Assembly: GCA_937883755.1 (NCBI GenBank)
Contig: CAKZYA010000018.1
Span: 1-51,685, forward strand
Length of the DNA stretch: 51,685 nt
Direction of reading: 5' to 3'
Source: an uncultured Flammeovirgaceae bacterium
GTDB taxonomy: Bacteria > Bacteroidota > Bacteroidia > Cytophagales > Cyclobacteriaceae
Shown: positions 21,344-51,685 of the stretch, piece after piece
How positions within the stretch are numbered: position 1 is the stretch's first letter
How the letters are laid out: every line of letters starts with the position of its first letter
Position numbers and translations under genes: made by a program
Notes under the pieces: model-generated
Databases searched by the model: none
What the model saw: only the letters and a program-made list of their open reading frames with translations
Told to the model about the DNA's origin: nothing

Positions 21344-21397
21344 AGCTCTCTATTTATCGGGTTAAATTATTGAATGACGCTTACTCAATAAATGTTT

Positions 21398-21527
21398 TAC
21401 AACGGTCTTGGCTATGAGTAGTTGCGAAATTTCACCGGATAAGCTTTGCGCAGGCGCAAGTTGATCTCCCAAAAATCAACCCTATCAACATGGTAATTAC
21501 CTGCTATTGCTTATATACAGCGTTGTA
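21398..21527. repeat. Cassette-flank-like element with TACAACG/CGTTGTA ends
   Basis: TACAACG (21398-21404) and CGTTGTA (21521-21527) are perfect inverted 7-mers bounding about 116 bases that include GGTCTTGGCTATGAGTAG. The arrangement (AAC-type core, variable middle, GTT-type core) recalls integron attC sites but does not match their strict consensus. I recall similar sequences between unrelated genes in Bacteroidota genomes. It sits 24 bp from the 3' end of the nucleotidyltransferase gene. Confidence 0.45.
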
Positions 21528-21550
21528 GCCAGTTGTTTTGTTGTTTGTTT

Positions 21551-22336
21551 TCAACTATTAGCAATTCTTTCAATACAATACTCAAAAAAGCGAGAGAGGT
21601 TTTCTGTTAAGAATTGTTTTTGTCTGTCCGTTTTTTTGTGCGCATATCCTTCCAACGCAGTTTGAATCATCTCATGAAATTCAGCAGGGAAATTTTGGAG
21701 TCCCCATTCGCCACCCTGTTTCTTTGAAGAAAGTTTGTGAGTTTCATATGCTCGAACAACTCGGCACAAATTGAGCACAGCATATATGGGTCTTTCTTCA
21801 AATTGTTCTTTAATAAATGGCATTTCCTGTTGGAGAGAACGCTTCAAAATTTCCCACGGTACGGGCAAAAATAATTTCTGCGGTTCATATCCAAATATCT
21901 TTAAGCCTGATTCATATAAGTGTTGGCGATGCATAGGAAAATCATGTTCGCCCTGTCCTTCTTTTGCTTTTACAAATTCTTTACCTTCCACGTAAAACAA
22001 AAAATCAGGTGGGTAATCATCGGTTTTTACCTGTTCTTCGGTCATGTACGTTCCTTCAATACGTTTTCCATATTCGGGATCGTTACCCAAACGCCCATGC
22101 AATTGAGCTATTTTTTGCTCTTCTTTGGAAGTTAGCGGTTCAGACAAAACGACAACAAAGTCTATGTCGCTCGTTTCGGAATTAAAACAGCCATAAGCAA
22201 GAGAGCCATACAGGTACAAACCAAAAAGTTTGTCGCTAAGTGTGTTTTGTAAACCATCTCTAAGAGCAAAAACAATCTCTCTAACTTTTGCAGGTGCATT
22301 TTCAAAACCAATATTTTTTTGCTCTATTTCAGACAT
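21551..22336 (-). CDS. Nucleotidyltransferase, aminoglycoside adenylyltransferase-like
   Basis: 261 aa. The N-terminal nucleotidyltransferase domain has GLYLYGSLAYGCFNSETSDIDF, with the GS (44-45) and the metal-binding D-x-D (Asp57, Asp59), as in AadA/ANT enzymes. A C-terminal helical region (about 150-260, including NLCRVVRAYETHKLSSKKQGGEWGL) fits the DUF4111 domain of streptomycin/spectinomycin adenylyltransferases. Whether this protein acts on an aminoglycoside or another small alcohol is not decidable from sequence. The gene-adjacent inverted repeat at its 3' end suggests mobile-cassette history. Confidence 0.8.
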   Translation of the reverse strand: MSEIEQKNIGFENAPAKVREIVFALRDGLQNTLSDKLFGLYLYGSLAYGCFNSETSDIDFVVVLSEPLTSKEEQKIAQLHGRLGNDPEYGKRIEGTYMTEEQVKTDDYPPDFLFYVEGKEFVKAKEGQGEHDFPMHRQHLYESGLKIFGYEPQKLFLPVPWEILKRSLQQEMPFIKEQFEERPIYAVLNLCRVVRAYETHKLSSKKQGGEWGLQNFPAEFHEMIQTALEGYAHKKTDRQKQFLTENLSRFFEYCIERIANS

Positions 22337-43354: not shown

Positions 43355-44689
43355 TCAGGGAGTGGTTCCTATCAGTCCCCCGCGTAGGTTTTCAAGCCGC
43401 ATAAACGACTGAATAATCTCAGCTTGGATATCGCTCACGGTGATATTTGCATTTAGCAAAGCGGTTTGGGTATCTCGGATATCAAGTGAGGTTGCTTTAC
43501 CATTGTAATACCTTTCTTGCATTCGGCGAAAACTCTCAGTAAACGTGTCTAGGTTTTTTTCCTCTCGAGCCAACTGCGCTTGCAGATACTCCAGCGTACT
43601 ATATTCTTTGATGGCTTGGTTAACCAGACGCTCACGCACCTGCTGTAAGCGAACCTCTTCGGCCTCAATTGCCAGTCGGTCGTTTTGTAAGTTCCGGCGG
43701 GTTTGTCCACCTCGGTACAAGTTATAGCGGAGCGAGACTCCGGCGGTATACCCAATGTTTTGCAACTCAGCTAACTGTTGCACATCGTTTCGTTGCCACT
43801 GGTAGCCGTAGTTGGCAAACGCACTTAGCTGAGGGTACTGGTTCGCTTGGGTAAGTTTGCGCTGATCCTGAGCGGTCAGTAGGCTTTCGGCCTGTAGCTT
43901 ACGCTCGGGGTTACTCTGAAGCACCTGTTGCTTCAAGCTATCCAAAGTTACTACCTTGGGTAGTTGATAGACTGCCGACACTGCGTAGTTAGATTCGGCT
44001 GGTTGACCAACCAAAAAGTTGAGGTCTTTCAGCAGGTTGTTTTTAGCCAAGCGCACATCGTCCAGCGCATTTTGATCTTGGTTTAGATCCGTCTCTGCCC
44101 TCAGAATATCCAATCCGGTGGCCTTACCAAAGGAAAACTGGTCGTTGACTTTTGCCAATCGCTCCTGGCTAATCTCAATGGTTTCGCGTAGCAGTTCCTC
44201 CCGACGTTGAAGCTTAGCGATTTCCAAAAATAGTTCAGCTACCGATAACACCGTGTTGTTTACCAGTATCTCCTGCTGATAGCGACTGATGGTAGCCGAA
44301 TGTTCTAACAGACGGTAGCGGTACTGTCCACTAAATCCACTAAACAGTACATAGTCAGCCTGCACGACTGCCGAAGCCTGTTCAGTGACGACATTCTCTT
44401 CGTCAATAGTAATCTGAGCAGGGTTCTCTGTAAACGTCCGAAGGGTTACTTCTGTATTACCGCTGCTGTAACTTCCGTTACCAATTAGGCTGATCGTCGG
44501 GAGTAATCCGGCGTTGCCTTTGTACACATTGTTACGGACAATATCGGTTTGTTTGCGCTGAATAGCAATCTCCTGATTGTTGGTCAGCGCCATATCAATC
44601 GCCTCTTCCAAAGTCAATGTCTCCTGGGCGTACACAATCGGAGTTGCACTGAAGAAACAGAAAAAAATAAGAATATATAAAGCTTTCAT
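43355..44689 (-). CDS. TolC-family outer-membrane efflux protein
   Basis: 444 aa. Signal peptide ending PIVYAQE, then the TolC tandem OEP repeat: LTLEEAIDMALTNNQEIAIQRKQ near the start and long alpha-helical coiled segments. Examples are AELFLEIAKLQRREELLRETIEISQERLAKVNDQFSFG (in blocks) and RRMQERYYNGKATSLDIRDTQTALLNANITV. It forms the trimeric outer-membrane channel for the RND pump encoded upstream in the same operon (gap 99 bp, containing an inverted repeat). Confidence 0.95.
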   Translation of the reverse strand: MKALYILIFFCFFSATPIVYAQETLTLEEAIDMALTNNQEIAIQRKQTDIVRNNVYKGNAGLLPTISLIGNGSYSSGNTEVTLRTFTENPAQITIDEENVVTEQASAVVQADYVLFSGFSGQYRYRLLEHSATISRYQQEILVNNTVLSVAELFLEIAKLQRREELLRETIEISQERLAKVNDQFSFGKATGLDILRAETDLNQDQNALDDVRLAKNNLLKDLNFLVGQPAESNYAVSAVYQLPKVVTLDSLKQQVLQSNPERKLQAESLLTAQDQRKLTQANQYPQLSAFANYGYQWQRNDVQQLAELQNIGYTAGVSLRYNLYRGGQTRRNLQNDRLAIEAEEVRLQQVRERLVNQAIKEYSTLEYLQAQLAREEKNLDTFTESFRRMQERYYNGKATSLDIRDTQTALLNANITVSDIQAEIIQSFMRLENLRGGLIGTTP

Positions 44690-44712
44690 TATAGTGATGA
44701 TTAATGAGTATT

Positions 44713-44780
44713 GATTGATGACTGATGAATAATGATGAATGAATCATGTGATATCAGTCATTCGTCATTAATCATCAATC
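44713..44780. repeat. Imperfect inverted repeat between the RND and TolC genes
   Basis: GATTGATGACTGATGAAT (44713-) pairs imperfectly with the complement of CGTCATTAATCATCAATC (ending 44780); the sequence between is rich in TGAT/AATGA units. A stem of about 18-23 bp with mismatches is possible. It could act as an attenuator or RNA-stabilising element inside the operon, or simply be a low-complexity stretch. Confidence 0.4.
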
Positions 44781-44788
44781 ATTAAAAT

Positions 44789-47700
44789 TTAGCTAATTTG
44801 ATGCTTCATTTCGCGGAAGACTACATCCAGCTCTTCTGATTTCATGTTCCTTTTCCGTATCTTGAGATGATAAAACTCTTTCAGTTTATGAAAAAACAGT
44901 ATCAGTGCGGGTAAGAAGAATAGTGTGAGCACGATTCCAAAGATCAGGCCATAGGCCACCGCAATGGCAGTAGGTTTAATAAACTGGGCACTGATGGAGT
45001 TATTCAAAAGCAGTGGCGCTAAGCCAAACACCGTAGTGATGGTAGTAAGCACAATTGGACGGAAGCGGGAAATAGCCGCAGCTTTTAGACTTTCGGCTAC
45101 CGAGCCTCCCTTCTTCAATTCTTCGTTGTAAGTAGAAATGAGTACCAGCCCATTATTAATCAAAATCCCCCAGAGGGCGATCATGCCCAAAACTGAGAAA
45201 ATACTGAATGGAATGCCGTGCAAGAACGTACCCCAGGCCACACCGACAAAGGCAAAAGGGAGAATCATCAGGATTGCTAACGTCTTACTTGCTGAGCGAT
45301 AGTTCAGCATCAGCACGGTGATCATCAGCACTAAGATAATAATACTCGGAGCCTGGCTGGAGTTTTGGGTCTTGCTTGACAAGCGCGCCTCACCCTCCAG
45401 GGTATAGCGTAAGCTGGGGAACTGCTGTTGAATGTCCTTTAGTACCGTAGCCTCAGCTTCAGCCAGCACGGCGGGTACCGATACCAGCAGGTTTTCTACG
45501 TCCGCTTCTACACGAACCTCGCGGGCACCTTCCTGGTGATTGATAGCCGCTACGCTGGTTTGGTTATCAAAGGTGGCCAGTTCACGAATAGGGTAGGAAG
45601 CCCCGTTGGGAGTCCGGAGTCGTACACTCTCGAGCTGATCGACCGAACGCCGGTCTTGCTTATCGTAGCGTAACCATACTTTTACTTCCTCGTCGCCTCG
45701 TTGTAAGCTTTGGGCCTCTAGCCCGAAGAAGCCTTGACGCACCTGATTGAATACTTGAGCCTCTGACAAACCTAATAGGCGAGCTTTCGGACTTAGCCTC
45801 ATCGCTAGTTCGGGTACCCCTTGTTTGTCGGTATCGGTCACATCTTTCAAGTCACTACGCTGCTCCAGATAGTCGCGTAGCTGGGTTTTGGCGGCGCGTA
45901 GCTCCTCTAGATTATTGCCGACTAAAGCGATGGAAACGGGTTTGCCGAATACTGCCACACTGCCGTATGACAAATTACGGGCTTGCGGAATGAACCCCAC
46001 CTTATCACGAATGGCACTGGCGATTTCAAACGATTGGATACCTCGCTTGTCACCTTCCATCATGTAGATATTCAGTTTGCCCTCGTTGCTACGGGGACCG
46101 ATGATTCGTTCTACATAATTAACCACCTGAGCGCTATCATCGCGCTTGGTGCTGTAGCGTTCATTCACTTTCCAGACGGCCTCTTCCATTTGCTTTAGCC
46201 GCTCATTCACCACGGTTTCGTCGGTGCCCAGCGGTAGCTCCAAATTCGCGGTGATTACATCCTGGTCAATGGTCGGAAAGAACGTGCTCTTGATGGTACC
46301 TGATCCCATAGCAAATATGGAAAGTCCCATCACCACGATCACACTTACAATGGGTACCCAAGGTTGGCGAATGCCGAACCCAATAATCGGTACATAGACT
46401 TTATCGCGGAAGCGAATGAGTGATTCGTTCGTTTTTTGGGTCAGTTTCCAAGGCTTGTCATCTTTGTTCAATGCCCTAGAGCGAGCTACGTGCACAGGTA
46501 AGAAAAACAAGCTCTCGAGCAAGGCAACTAGCAGCGTAGCGCACACGACAAACGAAATATCCGAAAAGTAGTCGCCTAATTGTCCATCTAAGAAGAAGAA
46601 GAGCGAAAAAGCCAGCGCGGTGGTTGTTAGCGAAGAGATGATGGCCGGTAGCACTTCCAACGTGCCATCAAGGGCTGCCCGTAGTGGGTTTTTTCCATCG
46701 GTATAGTGTTGATAAATATTTTCCGCTACTACTACCCCATCATCGACGAGGATACCGAGCACGACAATGGTACCAAACAGGGATACTTGGTTGATGGTGA
46801 GATCGTAGAAATTGGATAAGATAAACATCCCCAGCAGCGCTACCGGAATCTTAAAGGCTACCCAAAACGCAATACGAGGGTGCAAAAATAACCCCAGTAC
46901 GATCAATACCAGCAGAATACCTTGCCAGGCGTTATTCACTAAAGTTCCGATCGCACTGCTCAGTGAGATACTTTTGTCCTCAATGATTACGGCATCTACT
47001 CCCTCATGAGCCTCGTTGAACTGCGATAGGTAGTTGGCCACGTACTCAGCATTTTCCAGAATGTCTTCCTCGTTGCGACTGAATACCTTGAGGGTAACTG
47101 CCTGCTCATTGTTGATAAACGTGCGGTCGGGTTTGTCGGCAAACTGGTTTTTCACCTCGGCTACATCCTTCAAAAGGATTACTTTACCATCAGGCGTAGC
47201 TTTCACTACCGCGTTTAGGAGACCCTGGGCGTAGTAATTGCGACTATTAAGTCGGATAAGAATATCACGATCATTGGTTTCTATTTCTCCACCTGAAGCC
47301 TTGATATTGGTTTGCTGAATAGCTCGACTTACTTCCTCAAATGTTAATTGATAGGCCCGTAAGTCATGTTCCCGTACCCGCACTTCAATCTCCTCTTCTG
47401 GATAACCACTAATGGTAATTTGCGATAAGTCGGGGGAAAGGATCAGTTCGTCTTTAATATGCTTGGCGTAATCCTTCAGCGTGGTCAAACCCACCTCGCC
47501 GATCAAACTAAAGGTCATGGTGTAGTTAAGTACCTCTTCTTTAAGAATCACCGGAGTTTCTACCCCATCCGGAAAGGTGGTTATCCGATCCACTGCATTA
47601 TTCACATCTTGTAACACTTCGTTAACATTGGCATCCTCCTCTATTTCAATTCGTACATTGCCATTGCTTTCAGTTGCGGTAGAAGTAACCCGCAGAATAC

Positions 47701-47929
47701 CGTTAATATCCTGAAGGTTATCTTCTATTTTATTAACCACCTCTTCCTCAACTTCCTCAGGGGAGGCTCCTCGGTAGACGGTGTTGACGGTGATGAAGCT
47801 GACGGGTTCTGGCGGTAGAAAGTTAGACCGCATGGAGAGCATGGTAAATACTCCGACCACCACAATTAATCCGATAAAGATATTGACCAGTGCAGGCCGT
47901 TGGGCGAGAAATTCAATAGCCTTTTTCAT
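44789..47929 (-). CDS. RND efflux pump inner-membrane permease
   Basis: 1046 aa, proton-driven RND transporter of the AcrB/MMPL type. N-terminal cytoplasmic/TM1 (RPALVNIFIGLIVVVGVF), pore-domain start EEVEEEVVNKIEDNL, TM4 with the proton-relay Asp pair VVLGILVDDGVVVAENIYQHY, and the second half starting near 520 with RQPWVPIVSVIVVMGLSIF, and TM10-like GMIALWGILINNGLVLISTYNEE. Substrate not deducible; the branch without the strict HAE1 drug-pump hallmarks could transport drugs, lipids or metals. It begins 1 bp after the adaptor stop and has no frame interruptions. Confidence 0.95.
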   Translation of the reverse strand: MKKAIEFLAQRPALVNIFIGLIVVVGVFTMLSMRSNFLPPEPVSFITVNTVYRGASPEEVEEEVVNKIEDNLQDINGILRVTSTATESNGNVRIEIEEDANVNEVLQDVNNAVDRITTFPDGVETPVILKEEVLNYTMTFSLIGEVGLTTLKDYAKHIKDELILSPDLSQITISGYPEEEIEVRVREHDLRAYQLTFEEVSRAIQQTNIKASGGEIETNDRDILIRLNSRNYYAQGLLNAVVKATPDGKVILLKDVAEVKNQFADKPDRTFINNEQAVTLKVFSRNEEDILENAEYVANYLSQFNEAHEGVDAVIIEDKSISLSSAIGTLVNNAWQGILLVLIVLGLFLHPRIAFWVAFKIPVALLGMFILSNFYDLTINQVSLFGTIVVLGILVDDGVVVAENIYQHYTDGKNPLRAALDGTLEVLPAIISSLTTTALAFSLFFFLDGQLGDYFSDISFVVCATLLVALLESLFFLPVHVARSRALNKDDKPWKLTQKTNESLIRFRDKVYVPIIGFGIRQPWVPIVSVIVVMGLSIFAMGSGTIKSTFFPTIDQDVITANLELPLGTDETVVNERLKQMEEAVWKVNERYSTKRDDSAQVVNYVERIIGPRSNEGKLNIYMMEGDKRGIQSFEIASAIRDKVGFIPQARNLSYGSVAVFGKPVSIALVGNNLEELRAAKTQLRDYLEQRSDLKDVTDTDKQGVPELAMRLSPKARLLGLSEAQVFNQVRQGFFGLEAQSLQRGDEEVKVWLRYDKQDRRSVDQLESVRLRTPNGASYPIRELATFDNQTSVAAINHQEGAREVRVEADVENLLVSVPAVLAEAEATVLKDIQQQFPSLRYTLEGEARLSSKTQNSSQAPSIIILVLMITVLMLNYRSASKTLAILMILPFAFVGVAWGTFLHGIPFSIFSVLGMIALWGILINNGLVLISTYNEELKKGGSVAESLKAAAISRFRPIVLTTITTVFGLAPLLLNNSISAQFIKPTAIAVAYGLIFGIVLTLFFLPALILFFHKLKEFYHLKIRKRNMKSEELDVVFREMKHQIS

Positions 47930-47930
47930 A

Positions 47931-49073
47931 CTACATACGTACTTTTTTACCTTCTACCGGCGTGCTGAATTGGTTGATGATCAGTTGATCGTTCTCAGTA
48001 AGGCCATCTACAATAATAGAGTCGCGTAGATACTCTAAGGGAGTAATGGGTTTGCGTACGATCACATTTTCTTCCAAAACCAGAACACTTTCGTCGCGCG
48101 ACAGAGCGATTTGTGGAATAACAAACACATCTTCATAATTTCGGGTAGTAAACTCTCCTTCCAGATACATGCCACTCTTAAGAGAAGGCCCTTCCATCTG
48201 GAAGAACACCGGAATGTTCTGTGTTTGGGGATCTACGATGTCGTTGATACGGATTACTTTGCCGATCCAAGTACCAACTACTTCATTGCTATGAAAGGTA
48301 AGTTGATCGCCAACAGCTAGGTGAGTGGTAGCCTCCAAATTCACTCCAGCTTCTAGTTCGTAATCATTATTGCTGATGAGGGTGCCTAACAGTTGCCCCG
48401 GCGACACCATACCACCAATATCTACCTGAGCGTTCGTCACTAATCCGGCGTAAGGAGCCCGAATGGTGTATTTCCTTAATCGCTCTTCTTGCGCCTTAAT
48501 TGAGTAGAAGGTATTGTACACTTGGTTTGAAGTGATAAAGTACTTTTCGCCTTCTGAAGAAGTTCCGGGCAGTGATTGTAGAGGCTGACCACTATCGTAG
48601 GCTTGCACGTAAGTAAGCCATTGTTGATAGTTATCGGGGTAGTCAGCTTTTAGATCAGGCATAATACCCGTGAGGATGTTAAGGAACGCGCTACGCTGAG
48701 CCTCTAAATTCAGGGCAAATTCCCGGGAATCGATGTAAAGTAGCACTTCCCCTTGCTTAAATGACTGACCAGCCTTAAAATTACTGGAGTTGGATAAAAT
48801 TCGCCCTTGTACTTCAGCGAACAATTGAGTTTGATTTTTGGGAACTACCCGTCCACTGATAGGTACTTGAATAGCTTTCTCTCTGTTTTTTAAGGGAAGT
48901 AACTCTAGTGTGCTATGGCGCACGGCATTAGAAGCACTAGCGGCCTCCTTTCTACTAAATTCTTCGGAAGAGGCGTTAGCAGCTTCGCTTTCGGATTTAG
49001 TGACATACGAAATAAGGGTGATACTCAGAACTATTCCAAGTAGCCCTAGTGCGGTGAACTTCAGGTTTTTCAT
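47931..49073 (-). CDS. RND periplasmic adaptor (membrane fusion protein)
   Basis: 380 aa. The N-terminal anchor is KFTALGLLGIVLSITLISYV. The lipoyl-like half-motifs are IQVPISGRVVPKNQTQLFAEVQGRI and IRAPYAGLVTNAQVDIGGMVSPGQLLG, separated by an alpha-hairpin around 130-200. A beta-barrel domain (VGDQLTFHSNEVVGTWIGKVIRI) and a membrane-proximal end (LVLEENVIVRKPITPLEYLRDSIIVDGL) follow. First gene of the adaptor-permease-TolC operon; the operator TGACTAACGGTCA lies 27 bp upstream of its start. Confidence 0.94.
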   Translation of the reverse strand: MKNLKFTALGLLGIVLSITLISYVTKSESEAANASSEEFSRKEAASASNAVRHSTLELLPLKNREKAIQVPISGRVVPKNQTQLFAEVQGRILSNSSNFKAGQSFKQGEVLLYIDSREFALNLEAQRSAFLNILTGIMPDLKADYPDNYQQWLTYVQAYDSGQPLQSLPGTSSEGEKYFITSNQVYNTFYSIKAQEERLRKYTIRAPYAGLVTNAQVDIGGMVSPGQLLGTLISNNDYELEAGVNLEATTHLAVGDQLTFHSNEVVGTWIGKVIRINDIVDPQTQNIPVFFQMEGPSLKSGMYLEGEFTTRNYEDVFVIPQIALSRDESVLVLEENVIVRKPITPLEYLRDSIIVDGLTENDQLIINQFSTPVEGKKVRM

Positions 49074-49099
49074 TACTGCGTTTTAAGATTTTTATAAAA

Positions 49100-49112
49100 T
49101 GACTAACGGTCA
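49100..49112. promoter_or_regulatory. TetR operator in front of the efflux operon
   Basis: TGAC-TAACG-GTCA, a 4-base-arm palindrome with a 5-base centre, 27 bp upstream of the adaptor start. The same 13-mer occurs at 49892-49904 in front of the tetR gene, and the similarity extends on one side (TTGCTTA after five to six bases). This is strong evidence for a shared repressor site. Confidence 0.7.
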
Positions 49113-49259
49113 CTATTGCTTAATCGCAGTTTGGATCATTTTGTTTAGTTAAATAGGAAATTTTTTTAAACAAAATTAAAGAAAATAAACAATTGTCGCC
49201 CATTAAGTGAAGAGAATCAGTCAATTAGGCGAAAAAATAATTTTTATAAAAAATGACTG

Positions 49260-49889
49260 TCAGTCTTTTTTGGTGGCAGAAATGCCATCAGCCATTATCT
49301 GTACGGAGATATTGACCATTTCGTCTATAGGAGTATCATGAATATTTTGAATCAATTTCTGCTTGGTTTGCACAAACTGAATAACGCCAATATTGGTAGC
49401 CCAAATGACTCTGACTAATAATTCGGGATTGAGAGAAGGTTTAATCTCGCCTTTTTGTTGTCCTTCGGTAATAATATTTTCGCAGAACTCTTGAATTGAT
49501 TGGCTGATCTTAGTGTATCCCTGAAAATCAATATTAAAATCAGGACGTTCAATATAGGCCAGTAACTCATGGTAGGCTAAATGAGTTTGATAATAGCGGT
49601 AGGCTGCCCAGCATATTGCTTTGAGCTTTTCTACGCTGTGGGTATGACTAGCGGTTGCTTGCTGAAAAATTTGTAGTAGAAGACCGATAGCTTTGGTACT
49701 AATCTCGGCTAAGATCTCGTCCTTACTTTTGAAATATTTATAGACTGTTCCTTTGGCAATATTAGCCCGTTCGGCTACCTGATCAATGGTAAAATCCTCA
49801 ACGCCTACATCGATAAGTACCAAATCAGCCGCTGACAATATTTGCTGGCGACGCATCTCTGCTGATTGGTGTTTAGAGCCGACTTTCAT
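49260..49889 (-). CDS. TetR/AcrR-family repressor of the efflux operon
   Basis: 209 aa. N-terminal helix-turn-helix (about 10-57) with ILSAADLVLIDVGVEDFTIDQ and IAKGTVYKYFKSKDEILAEIS, then a helical ligand domain (about 70-205). It is upstream of and codirectional with the adaptor-RND-TolC genes (186 bp gap), and both units carry the same operator. A further shortened palindrome TGACTGTCA overlaps its stop codon at about 49254-49262. It is probably released by a transported compound. Confidence 0.93.
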   Translation of the reverse strand: MKVGSKHQSAEMRRQQILSAADLVLIDVGVEDFTIDQVAERANIAKGTVYKYFKSKDEILAEISTKAIGLLLQIFQQATASHTHSVEKLKAICWAAYRYYQTHLAYHELLAYIERPDFNIDFQGYTKISQSIQEFCENIITEGQQKGEIKPSLNPELLVRVIWATNIGVIQFVQTKQKLIQNIHDTPIDEMVNISVQIMADGISATKKD

Positions 49890-49891
49890 AA

Positions 49892-49904
49892 TGACTAACG
49901 GTCA
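49892..49904. promoter_or_regulatory. TetR operator, autoregulatory copy
   Basis: Exact second copy of TGACTAACGGTCA, starting 2 bp upstream of the repressor's ATG. Binding here would block transcription or translation initiation of the repressor gene itself. Confidence 0.7.
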
Positions 49905-50088
49905 TAGTTGCTTACTATATACCGAAAATCAGCCTAAATGGTTCAGAATGCTAACGGTCTAGTATAAGAATAGTAGCGGATTTTCACGCATTAAATTTTC
50001 GGTTAAACACAGACCTTTTTTATATTCATTTACTTTTGCTTTAGCAATTAAACCGCTATTATTTTTATACATTGTTAGGGCAAGTTTT

Positions 50089-50432
50089 TTATTTTTTATG
50101 GAACAAATAATCTAATTCAATTTCAATTCGTGGTTTTTCAAATTTTTCGTCAGTTAATGGTGAAAACATAATTTTATAAGGTAATCTCAAATCTTTAAAA
50201 GTCTTGAAATACGCAATATAATTTTCTCTTTCAACATAGTCTCCTCTGTCTATTGATGAACCGTGAATTAAAAGAGTAGCTGTAATATTATCAATTTCTC
50301 CAGTTGAATTTTTTACAACGACAATATTTTCTAAATACTTTTCAATTGGTTCATTATTTGTAATTTCAACTTTATATTTTGAGCCTAAACTATCTTTTTC
50401 GATTAAAATTGCTTTATCTGTAGATTTGAAAA
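50089..50432 (-). pseudogene. 3' part of an interrupted secreted-protein gene
   Basis: An open frame of about 114 codons plus a stop (TAA 50089-50091) without a usable start: upstream the next in-frame codon of interest is a TAA at 50458-50460 and no ATG occurs before residue ~95. Translated text includes FFKSTDKAILIEKDSLGSK and ends IELDYLFHKK. If the 172-bp element and one target copy are removed, its first codons follow directly in frame on ...GDVVSLP of the 50607-51422 frame. AT-rich like its 5' partner. Function of the whole protein unknown. Confidence 0.75.
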
Positions 50433-50436
50433 ATGG

Positions 50437-50608
50437 AAGTGATTTAAACTTTTGGTATTAGATTCATAGGAATAGCTTCATACTCAGTAAGTTTAAGTGA
50501 TACAAAGTATAGCATAAATTGTATCAAAAGCTGAGCAAATTATTCGTTTTAATGAATTGAAAATCAAAGCTTTAGCATAAATATTCTCTAAAAAGTTTAA
50601 ATCACTTT
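50437..50608. mobile_element. 172-bp MITE-like element with 17-bp terminal inverted repeats
   Basis: AAGTGATTTAAACTTTT (50437-50453) is the exact reverse complement of AAAAGTTTAAATCACTT (50591-50607). The block is flanked by ATGG on both sides (50433-50436 and 50609-50612), a 4-bp target duplication (5 bp if A/T mismatch is allowed). Inside there is no ORF; an internal pair TGATACAA/TTGTATCA (50498-50505, 50519-50526) and a repeat TAGCATAAAT add secondary structure. It carries no transposase, so a related full-length insertion sequence elsewhere would have mobilised it. The family cannot be assigned from this alone. Confidence 0.75.
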
Positions 50609-51422
50609 ATGGTAAAGAAACAACATCTCCAATTCTGTTCATTTTTCCAATATAGGATTTGATATCCTCATCAGTATTTAACCTTGGATATTCATTTTGA
50701 ATCTCTCCATTCTGGTCATAAGTTCTTACGTATGTTTTTTTAATTCTTTCGATTTTGAAATATTGGTTGATTTTTTCTTGATAATCGAAAAATGAGTTTT
50801 TAAATTCTTCTGTGTTATATACTATCCACTCAGTTTCTATTTCTCCAAATAGGTCAAAACCTATTAAAGTCATTACATTATTCTGGATTGTGGAATAAGG
50901 AATTTTTAATCTAAATCTACCAAAGAGGTTTTTGCCTAATTTTCCATCATTATCTTTCAGTAGTTCCATATTCTCGAATAGTGTTCCATAAAAACTGAAC
51001 TTATCGATTGTTTTATCAATCATATTTGAATAGTCAGAAAATCTAAAAAAATTAGTGTTCTTTTTGTGATTTACTATATCTAATAAATAAACATTATTTC
51101 TAGTTAAATCTATTGGGTAAATGTGTTTCGATGAATTTCCTCTTAAAATATAATGTTTAACAATTTTCTTTTTTTGAATTAATTGAAAATCATAAATGAC
51201 ATTGTTAAGTAAATATTTATTCCAAATTTCTCCTTGTTTTAGAGAGTCAAGGTTTTTGAATTCAGGATTTTCTGAAACTAAATTTTCGTAAGGGTCAAAA
51301 AATATAACTTTAAGTTCATAATTCTCAAACTCAAGTTTTTCAATTGTTTTAGATTTCTGCGCAAATGAAGTATTTACCCCGAATATTAAGAAGATAATTA
51401 ATAGGATAAATTTTTCTTTCAT
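50607..51422 (-). CDS. 5' part of an interrupted secreted-protein gene (271 aa as it stands)
   Basis: Signal peptide MKEKFILLIIFLIFGVNTSFAQ, then a Lys/Asn/Ile-rich region with no domain I recognise (FENYELKVIFFDPYENLVSEN, KIPYSTIQNNVMTLIGFDLFGEIETEWIVYN). The stop codon TAA is made from the last base of the terminal inverted repeat of the inserted element. The original protein would run on for about 114 more residues, to about 385 in all. Codon usage is far more AT-rich than the neighbouring efflux genes, indicating recent acquisition. Confidence 0.7.
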   Translation of the reverse strand: MKEKFILLIIFLIFGVNTSFAQKSKTIEKLEFENYELKVIFFDPYENLVSENPEFKNLDSLKQGEIWNKYLLNNVIYDFQLIQKKKIVKHYILRGNSSKHIYPIDLTRNNVYLLDIVNHKKNTNFFRFSDYSNMIDKTIDKFSFYGTLFENMELLKDNDGKLGKNLFGRFRLKIPYSTIQNNVMTLIGFDLFGEIETEWIVYNTEEFKNSFFDYQEKINQYFKIERIKKTYVRTYDQNGEIQNEYPRLNTDEDIKSYIGKMNRIGDVVSLP

Positions 51423-51467
51423 AGTTCGATTTTGGGTTTTTTGGCAAATTTGCCATAACGGGAGCGT

Positions 51468-51526
51468 GGCTAGAGCTCGGATTTTGGGAAGAGACGAAGT
51501 ATCTGGACAAGATATGAGTTCTAGCC
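51468..51526. repeat. Long-loop hairpin, cassette-flank-like
   Basis: GGCTAGAGCTC (51468-51478) pairs with GAGTTCTAGCC (51516-51526) at every position if one G-T wobble is allowed, with a 37-base loop. Outside it CATAACGG (51453-51460) and CTGTTGTG (51529-51536) bring AAC and GTT cores together. The plan resembles an attC-type recombination site without the strict consensus. Confidence 0.45.
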
Positions 51527-51530
51527 GCCT

Positions 51531-51571
51531 GTTGTGCGACCGTACGAGCGAAGCGAGTATGTCGTAGCAAC
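51531..51571. repeat. Second hairpin next to the cassette-flank element
   Basis: GTTGTGCGAC (51531-51540) and GTCGTAGCAAC (51561-51571) pair with one bulge; the inner part AC-CGTAC/GTATGT pairs further, around a GAGCGAAGC loop. It is unusually GC-rich for this AT-rich end of the window. Confidence 0.4.
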
Positions 51572-51685
51572 ATGTGTATAAACAAACCTACGTAATAATA
51601 TAGCATAAAACAAACTAATATAAGTTGTATTGTAAGCTTCCCTTAGTTAGGAACATTAGTAATTAGAGATTTCCAGTTGTAGTTG

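Follow-up and report, generated by a model that had tools for sequence, protein, structure and literature searches.

The window, that is the whole stretch of 51,685 nucleotides analysed here from an uncultured Flammeovirgaceae bacterium, very probably carries an integron cassette gene for a 385-aa, probably secreted protein (the N-terminus was judged by eye) that was broken by a 173-bp MITE. The gene would have been present in the genome as a cassette, with a G^TT border and an attC, when an IS5-type transposase mobilised the MITE, whose insertion at codon 271 left a 3-bp duplication and a truncated protein. Cassette first and element later would be the simple order, because intact near-identical copies exist elsewhere. 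The insertion, the empty site in relatives, the copy number of the element, the cassette borders, the attC stem, the end rule of the cassettes and a linked recombinase elsewhere can all be read from the sequences compared. The split gene and its insert consist of the following parts.

49955-51458, minus strand: whole cassette as present, element included, from the TT of G^TTATGGC to the G of CCG^TTAGC, delimited by homology ends and border motifs
50607-51422, minus strand: 5' part of the gene, a 271-aa frame with a stop created at the element edge; best tblastn segments 86-96% identical in 7 loci
50089-50435, minus strand: 3' part of the gene, about 114 codons without a start; joined to the 5' part without a break in all five complete homologues
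50436-50608, no strand: MITE-like element of 173 bp; 13 identical and 2 diverged copies in the same genome, 3-bp duplications in 11 of 13
50436-50453, plus strand: terminal inverted repeat of 18 nt (GAAGTGATTTAAACTTTT); the same end, followed by other sequence, occurs at 10 contig ends
50591-50608, minus strand: terminal inverted repeat of 18 nt (AAAGTGATTTAAACTTTT), one mismatch at the tip
50433-50435, no strand: target duplication copy 1 (ATG), from copy comparison and homologue flanks
50609-50611, no strand: target duplication copy 2 (ATG), from copy comparison and homologue flanks

The initial annotation had described a 172-bp element with 17-bp perfect inverted repeats and a duplication of ATGG. 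The repeats are present at 50437-50453 and 50591-50607 and an element is indeed inserted, but it is one base longer: because all 13 identical copies show a G before AAGTGATTT, it extends from 50436 to 50608. Likewise, ATGG can be read at 50433-50436 and at 50609-50612, but the duplication is 3 bp (ATG). When the 60 bases on each side of the element were placed separately on five homologues, the flanks overlapped by exactly 3 nt in all five. Among the 13 identical copies the target duplication was 3 bp in 11 and 4 bp (GTAC) in L006, and was absent from L001, a copy that is located 75 bp from a contig end. With 18-nt inverted ends (one mismatch), a length of 173 bp, several copies, a target duplication and no transposase gene, the element has the features of a MITE.

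That the insertion at codon 271 split one gene, and would have truncated its protein, is supported by the reading frames and by the homologues. The upstream minus-strand frame (51422-50607, 271 aa) ends in ...GDVVSLP with a TAA that straddles the element edge, and the downstream frame (50436-50089) lacks a start and is open for 115 codons, from PFFKSTDK... to a stop, as had been described. Removal of 176 bp (the element and one duplication) restores a single frame, also as proposed, which counted from the coordinates has 270 + 1 + 114 = 385 codons. A pattern scan of species genomes with the 271-aa frame yielded seven homologue loci, by title from two Polaribacter, two Psychroflexus, an Ulvibacter, Aquimarina latercula and a Formosa. 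Polaribacter, P. aurantiacus and A. latercula are Flavobacteriaceae according to a taxonomy look-up, and we take Psychroflexus, Ulvibacter and Formosa to belong to the same family. Five loci are complete, L110 is cut by a contig end and L111 consists of pieces only. All five complete homologues run continuously across the joint and are 385 aa long, and none ends at residue 271, so that the search for homologues spanning the joint, which had been proposed as a check, came out in favour of a split gene.

With the protein (P0001) as query, 2 of 291 genomes of the own order matched, namely the own genome and one with a 42% local piece, and in a sample of the phylum 1 of 395, again the own one. Plasmids searched with the element and with the protein gave no match. 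As to function, the split gene had one Pfam match, below the cut-off (E 0.049), none of the five homologues matched Pfam at E 1, PADLOC gave no match for the two gene pieces, and a PDB search returned only matches of E 0.04. Three NCBIfam matches that would have pointed to a toxin (11-14 bits over 29 residues, cut-offs 600-736, best E 0.026) were taken as chance, and this identity was rejected.

Elsewhere in the own genome (7.6 Mb, 75 contigs) the element is frequent. It has 15 matches there, of which 13 are identical over the full element and two are diverged (87% and 75-76% identity). The inverted-repeat element is not a product of chance, because 13 copies are identical over 173 bp in one genome. 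The further copies for which the initial annotation had recommended a search were therefore found, and they lie in unrelated flanks with target duplications of their own. In three of the 13 (L004, L010 and L011, the window copy among them) long open frames on the same strand enter the element from both sides.

The other recommended search, for a parent insertion sequence, gave candidates with nearly the same ends in relatives and none assembled in the own genome. In the same-genus relatives G001-G003, eight end pairs were 167-177 bp apart, two pairs delimited 272 and 288 bp and two delimited 927 and 953 bp. The longest are probably IS5-type insertion sequences, of 0.93-0.95 kb, with ends nearly identical to those of the window element. 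The 927-bp element of G002 (L089) has GAAGTGATTTAAAGTTTT at both ends, an AAT target duplication and a transposase of 277 aa, counted from ATG. This candidate parent resembles the IS5 family in its 3-bp duplication and in its transposase, which matches DDE_Tnp_1 with 29 bits (cut-off 23) and, more weakly, DUF4096 and the IS5 model NF033580, with scores below the cut-offs (30.9 against 34.3 and 80.6 against 110). The window element differs from that family in having no transposase. The 953-bp element of G003 (L088) is without target duplication. Between the window element and the insertion sequences the ends alone are shared, the interior being without a match. In the own genome the exact element end, followed by different sequence, was found at 10 contig ends with the interior unassembled, and no assembled copy of an insertion sequence bearing exactly this end was found, the copies breaking at contig ends; this is as expected, since identical long copies break an assembly. 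On the own contig C9 the start of a transposase, with 75% identity to the G002 one, lies beside a related end. At seven contig ends of the own genome (L049-L055) a second insertion-sequence end was seen, GAACTGATTTAAACTTTTGCTAGG, which by eye resembles the 953-bp element of G003.

Twelve further end pairs were compared with the element against inner shuffles. Nine of them (L014, L015, L090, L092, L093, L094, L095, L096a and L096b) scored above the shuffles, with a margin below 3 sd for L094 and L096a; L091, L099 and L100 did not and were dropped as related MITEs. A short element of similar kind is MITECca01 of Cardinium (PMC9769881, in part), which also lacks a transposase gene and has insertion-sequence-like inverted ends and many copies. 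It is, however, about 240 bp long and derived from an IS982-family element (PMC9769881, in part), whereas the window element measures 173 bp, has IS5-type ends and lies inside an integron cassette.

The stop that falls right at the repeat could also be explained if the 271-aa frame were a natural gene followed by a conserved terminator or regulatory hairpin, the downstream frame being spurious; an open frame of 115 codons could arise by chance. However, the five complete homologues are 385 aa long and continuous across the site without any repeat, the copies of the element lie in unrelated flanks with their own duplications, a terminator-like site was not found in 49900-51685, and the window had no Rfam match at the gathering score. 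The probability of this explanation is negligible. A conserved terminator recurring in unrelated contexts had been named beforehand as the finding that would count against an insertion; the copies behave as inserts and empty sites are known, which speaks against such a terminator. As to the source of the mobility, the unlikeness of the element's interior to the insertion sequences and the unassembled state of the full-length copies with the exact end would fit mobilisation by a different DDE family whose ends are similar. This is unlikely, given that an apparently IS5-type element in the genus resembles the window element closely in its ends and likewise has a 3-bp duplication. The earlier proposal of an insertion by a non-autonomous DDE-type element is thus supported by the empty sites, by the copies in unrelated flanks and by the IS5-type candidate parents, and it is an IS5-type transposase that would have moved the short element.

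On the evidence of its ends, the split gene is an integron gene cassette, with a G^TT border at one end and an attC at the other. The DNA identity to the homologues is 84-97% and stops at the cassette borders, at window position 51460 in 6 of the 7 loci and at 50055-50033 in the five loci with a 3' end. In the six loci with a readable border the 5' border is CG^TTAGGGCAAATTTGCC, and the window reads TTATGGC. In the five loci with a 3' end, GCCCTAAC precedes a long imperfect hairpin that ends in CG^TT; the window cassette is one base off the end rule (GTTATGGC against GCCCTAAC). The cassette would have arrived by lateral transfer. Two sites delimit it.

49949-50080, minus strand: attC of the split-gene cassette; stem score 15 in a scan that preceded the model, included in alignment A1, 96.2 bits with model R1
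51452-51537, minus strand: probable attC of the preceding cassette, of a shorter 86-nt type, ending in the cassette border

The first of these lies just outside the interval 50089-51422 to which the initial annotation referred, where the cassette nature was missed. Its score has to be read with the fact that it is itself a member of model R1. Its fold is unexceptional against shuffles (z -1.73 on the plus strand, 11 of 200 as good; z -0.42 on the minus strand, 63 of 200). The 86-nt upstream site was not matched by model R1; on the plus strand it folds with -15.3 kcal/mol (z -3.43), a value that none of 200 shuffles equalled. Apart from this site, single attC sites fold only moderately better than shuffles.

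A hairpin scan gave 22 hits in 40 kb of homologue loci (four mirror images and one short hairpin included), none in its control, a single mononucleotide shuffle, and one in the window, at 49949-50080. In a first scan of arrays 38 hits fell on the array strand and 10, not checked singly, on the opposite one; a shuffle had 4. Alignment A1 was composed of 45 sites: 35 of the 38 array-strand hits, 9 of the 22 hairpin-scan hits and the window site. The three array-strand hits left out have odd boxes or borders; the 13 hairpin-scan hits outside A1 are four in L105 (Polaribacter sites already used via L130), five on the minus strand, the 173-nt hit L107:838 and three Aquimarina sites with 159 nt between the boxes. 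A1 revealed an attC stem of 13 pairs, with R''/R' boxes, with 98.3% of the cells paired and changes on both sides in 9 of the 13 pairs. Covariation of the stem was 0.483, against 0.125 when shuffled and at most 0.105 when the partner was slid, counts that are favoured because the stem was derived from the same alignment, the sites also being related.

An intact counterpart of the cassette is found within an array of Polaribacter sp. Hel1_85 (L105, G691), which has 124 attC matches on two contigs, 124 of 124 on one strand (model R1, E 0.001, 183 kb). On one contig they extend from 638616 to 710263, with another two at its end, and on the second, which is 53131 bp long, from 186 to 53109. The array was seen in loci L128-L130 and L150-L156, with a tyrosine recombinase at its head. 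The 7-nt 3' box (R'') of a cassette is the exact complement of its own 5' box in 111 of 121 neighbouring pairs; in 1000 shuffled orders the mean is 8.8 and the maximum 18 of 122. This count used 123 of the 124 matches (one being cut by a contig end) and neighbouring pairs within contigs, the 67 pairs of the first contig including one that spans a 41-kb gap. In 74 of 77 cassettes (those within single loci with an ORF of at least 60 aa) the longest ORF lies on the array strand. Alignment A3 comprises 73 of the 77, three on the other strand and one of 64 aa being omitted. Pfam assigned 48 families to these 73 cassettes, the best 25 of the 48 having one or two members each, and PADLOC found AbiGi, TIR-type and other defence models with one member apiece.

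Genome-wide, in a search that scored up to 150 candidates per genome, five Flavobacteriaceae have at least 142, 48, 43, 23 and 70 attC matches, respectively. The own genome has at least 13, of which the window match alone was inspected, and 11 relatives have from at least 0 to at least 13, with 0 in G028 and G005. The zero of G005 is a miss, because sites turned up there later.

In 4 of 4 genomes where it could be read, a tyrosine recombinase gene with the orientation of the array stands at its head, with 544-716 nt between the gene and the first attC; in a fifth (G692) the contig stops 148 bp beyond the recombinase gene. The border predicted from the first attC was found as an exact match past the recombinase stop, at 34 nt in Polaribacter, 43 in Ulvibacter, 41 in Aquimarina and 32 in Psychroflexus aestuariivivens, the Aquimarina border being read, shifted by one base, from a site cut by a contig end and weak on R1 (20.7 bits). 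Directly before the border, a candidate attI reading GATATAA..GA is present in 3 of 5 platforms (Ulvibacter, Psychroflexus and G005), and the other two share only TATAA. G005 belongs to the own family. There (L157, G005:C378, 12558-15105) a gene for a 276-aa tyrosine recombinase diverges from two attC-like sites, and the end rule puts the border between this gene and the first site, which is the classic integron layout. Rfam applied to L128, L129 and L157 gave one tRNA and nothing else.

The five head recombinase frames are 384-591 aa long and score 200-221 bits on the integron-integrase model TIGR02249, below its cut-off of 265. NF040815 (recomb_XerA_Arch) scores higher than TIGR02249 in four of the five, its own cut-off being passed in one. 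No protein passes the TIGR02249 cut-off in the own genome, in 18 relatives or in the 5 of 5 searchable cassette-bearing genomes (5 of the 7 homologue loci, L107 and L111 being outside the search), a result without a positive control, because none of 14 control genomes passes the cut-off either. The Polaribacter recombinase has 22 residues where IntI4 (PDB 2A3V) has 64, and two Xer-like chains align with it in one stretch. Two catalytic motifs are 56-57 residues apart in nine distinct recombinases, compared with 99 as read off the IntI4 alignment. This spacing could be measured in 10 of 14 loci (nine distinct proteins, five of them from Flavobacteriaceae), L115, L116, L117 and L157 having no measurable frame. 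The same spacing was found in recombinases not linked to arrays (L112-L114 and L136), so absence of the IntI insertion is not a marker of array-linked recombinases, being common to the unlinked ones as well.

Would the hairpins rather be dispersed repeats or dif/Xer-type sites, with the genes shared by homologous recombination and no integron involved? The likeness of the linked recombinases to XerA and XerC, and the integron-integrase cut-off that no protein reached, would be in keeping with this. But the cassette ends are complementary in 111 of 121 pairs, all attC matches point one way, homology halts at G^TT borders and, in 4 of 4 genomes, the array begins with the recombinase gene, 32-43 nt from the first border; as homologous exchange accounts for none of these array features, this explanation is very unlikely. 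If the arrays are real integron cassettes, they might still be served in trans by a canonical IntI, with the array-head recombinase as a bystander. A title cited in a 2008 survey of integron integrases reportedly calls the additional domain of IntI necessary for activity, which favours service in trans. The lack of any TIGR02249 match over the cut-off in the 5 of 5 searchable cassette-bearing genomes and in the 19 own and related genomes, read with the lack of a positive control, and the linked recombinase at the array head in 4 of 4 argue against it. The 2008 survey itself retained, as integron integrases, matches that bear the additional domain or patch (PMC2426708, in part), which also favours a canonical IntI. 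Altogether, service by IntI in trans appears rather improbable. From the anatomy of the arrays we infer an integrase role, an attI and mobility of the cassettes: the array-head recombinase without the IntI insertion would be the enzyme that moves them.

It seems likely, as far as sequence comparison can indicate, that Flavobacteriaceae and at least one genome of the own family (G005) carry an integron kind of their own, which reaches the size of a superintegron (124 attC) and would be run by Xer-like recombinases without the insertion regarded as defining and enabling integron integrases. In Flavobacteriaceae the attI would lie at the 3' end of an integrase gene co-directional with the array, integrons of this kind would escape surveys that demand the insertion, and the broken gene of the window would have been drawn from that pool. 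The large chromosomal integrons of Vibrio are likewise arrays of single-gene cassettes in one direction, with attC sites that have a G^TT border, complementary cassette ends and a recombinase at the array head. By comparison, the hosts here are Flavobacteriaceae, the recombinase, co-directional with the array, is without some 42 residues of the IntI insertion, and the first border is 32-43 nt past its stop.

IntegronFinder 2.0 reported one complete integron in Bacteroidetes, in Salinibacter ruber M1, where previously only In0 had been known (PMC9024848, in part); the phylum is that of the arrays described here, and Flavobacteriaceae are unmentioned in the part of the article consulted. The attC models of Ghaly et al. 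cover 11 taxa, with no Bacteroidota in the part used (PMC8352920). Bacteroidota are listed as a phylum among integron hosts in parts of PMC9668308 and PMC8618304, and in a marine cassette survey about 10% of the attC were assigned to known taxa (PMC10963911, in part). In the Polaribacter phage P12002L a CALIN is described whose attC2 recombined with attI1 (PMC9892861, in part). It likewise places attC sites in a Polaribacter-linked genome, but belongs to a phage and has two methyltransferase genes and no integrase (PMC9892861, in part); it is likened here by description and not by sequence. A literature search, with subscription papers and preprints outside its scope, gave no report of Flavobacteriaceae arrays or insertion-less integrases among the matches listed, and the novelty of the Flavobacteriaceae integrons is provisional. 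If the head recombinase moves cassettes, the IntI insertion would be dispensable for recombining folded attC sites. Integrons could then be an overlooked route of gene sharing in Flavobacteriaceae, which would explain why single genes plus their borders are common to different genera at 84-97% DNA identity. The element itself clearly illustrates how a cassette gene can be broken by a passenger transposon, and the intact copies of that gene lead to very large integrons in a family where integrons are little known.

The stretches of the own genome that were searched revealed no integrase next to the cassette. The assembly is fragmented, and the window contig ends at 51685, 148 bp past the upstream attC. 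Since the last 55 bases of the window (51631-51685) recur, reversed, at the starts of the own contigs C35 and C10, this contig ends in another repeat. A junction between C18 and C36 was considered and is unsupported, no shared 20-mer having been found. Around recombinase candidates on C36 and C27 no attC was found at E 0.05 in the stretches examined. Four frames of 444, 1046, 380 and 209 aa on the minus strand (43355-49889) adjoin the cassette end; by size and by eye they look like an RND-type efflux operon with a TetR-type regulator. A second cassette-like gene is present farther away in the window.

21551-22336, minus strand: cassette-like gene for an AadA-type nucleotidyltransferase (AadA_C, 3.5e-21), with an attC-like site behind it
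21397-21528, minus strand: this attC-like site, solitary; 33.7 bits (E 6.5e-05 in 250 kb) with model R1, to which it did not contribute

A further attC-like site (54.3 bits) was seen behind a gene for 117 aa on the own contig C35 (L166, 1533-1663). On C27 (L135, 11775-11833) part of the upstream attC is repeated over 59 bp, and a recombinase frame of 214 aa, apparently truncated, lies at a distance of about 1.3 kb.
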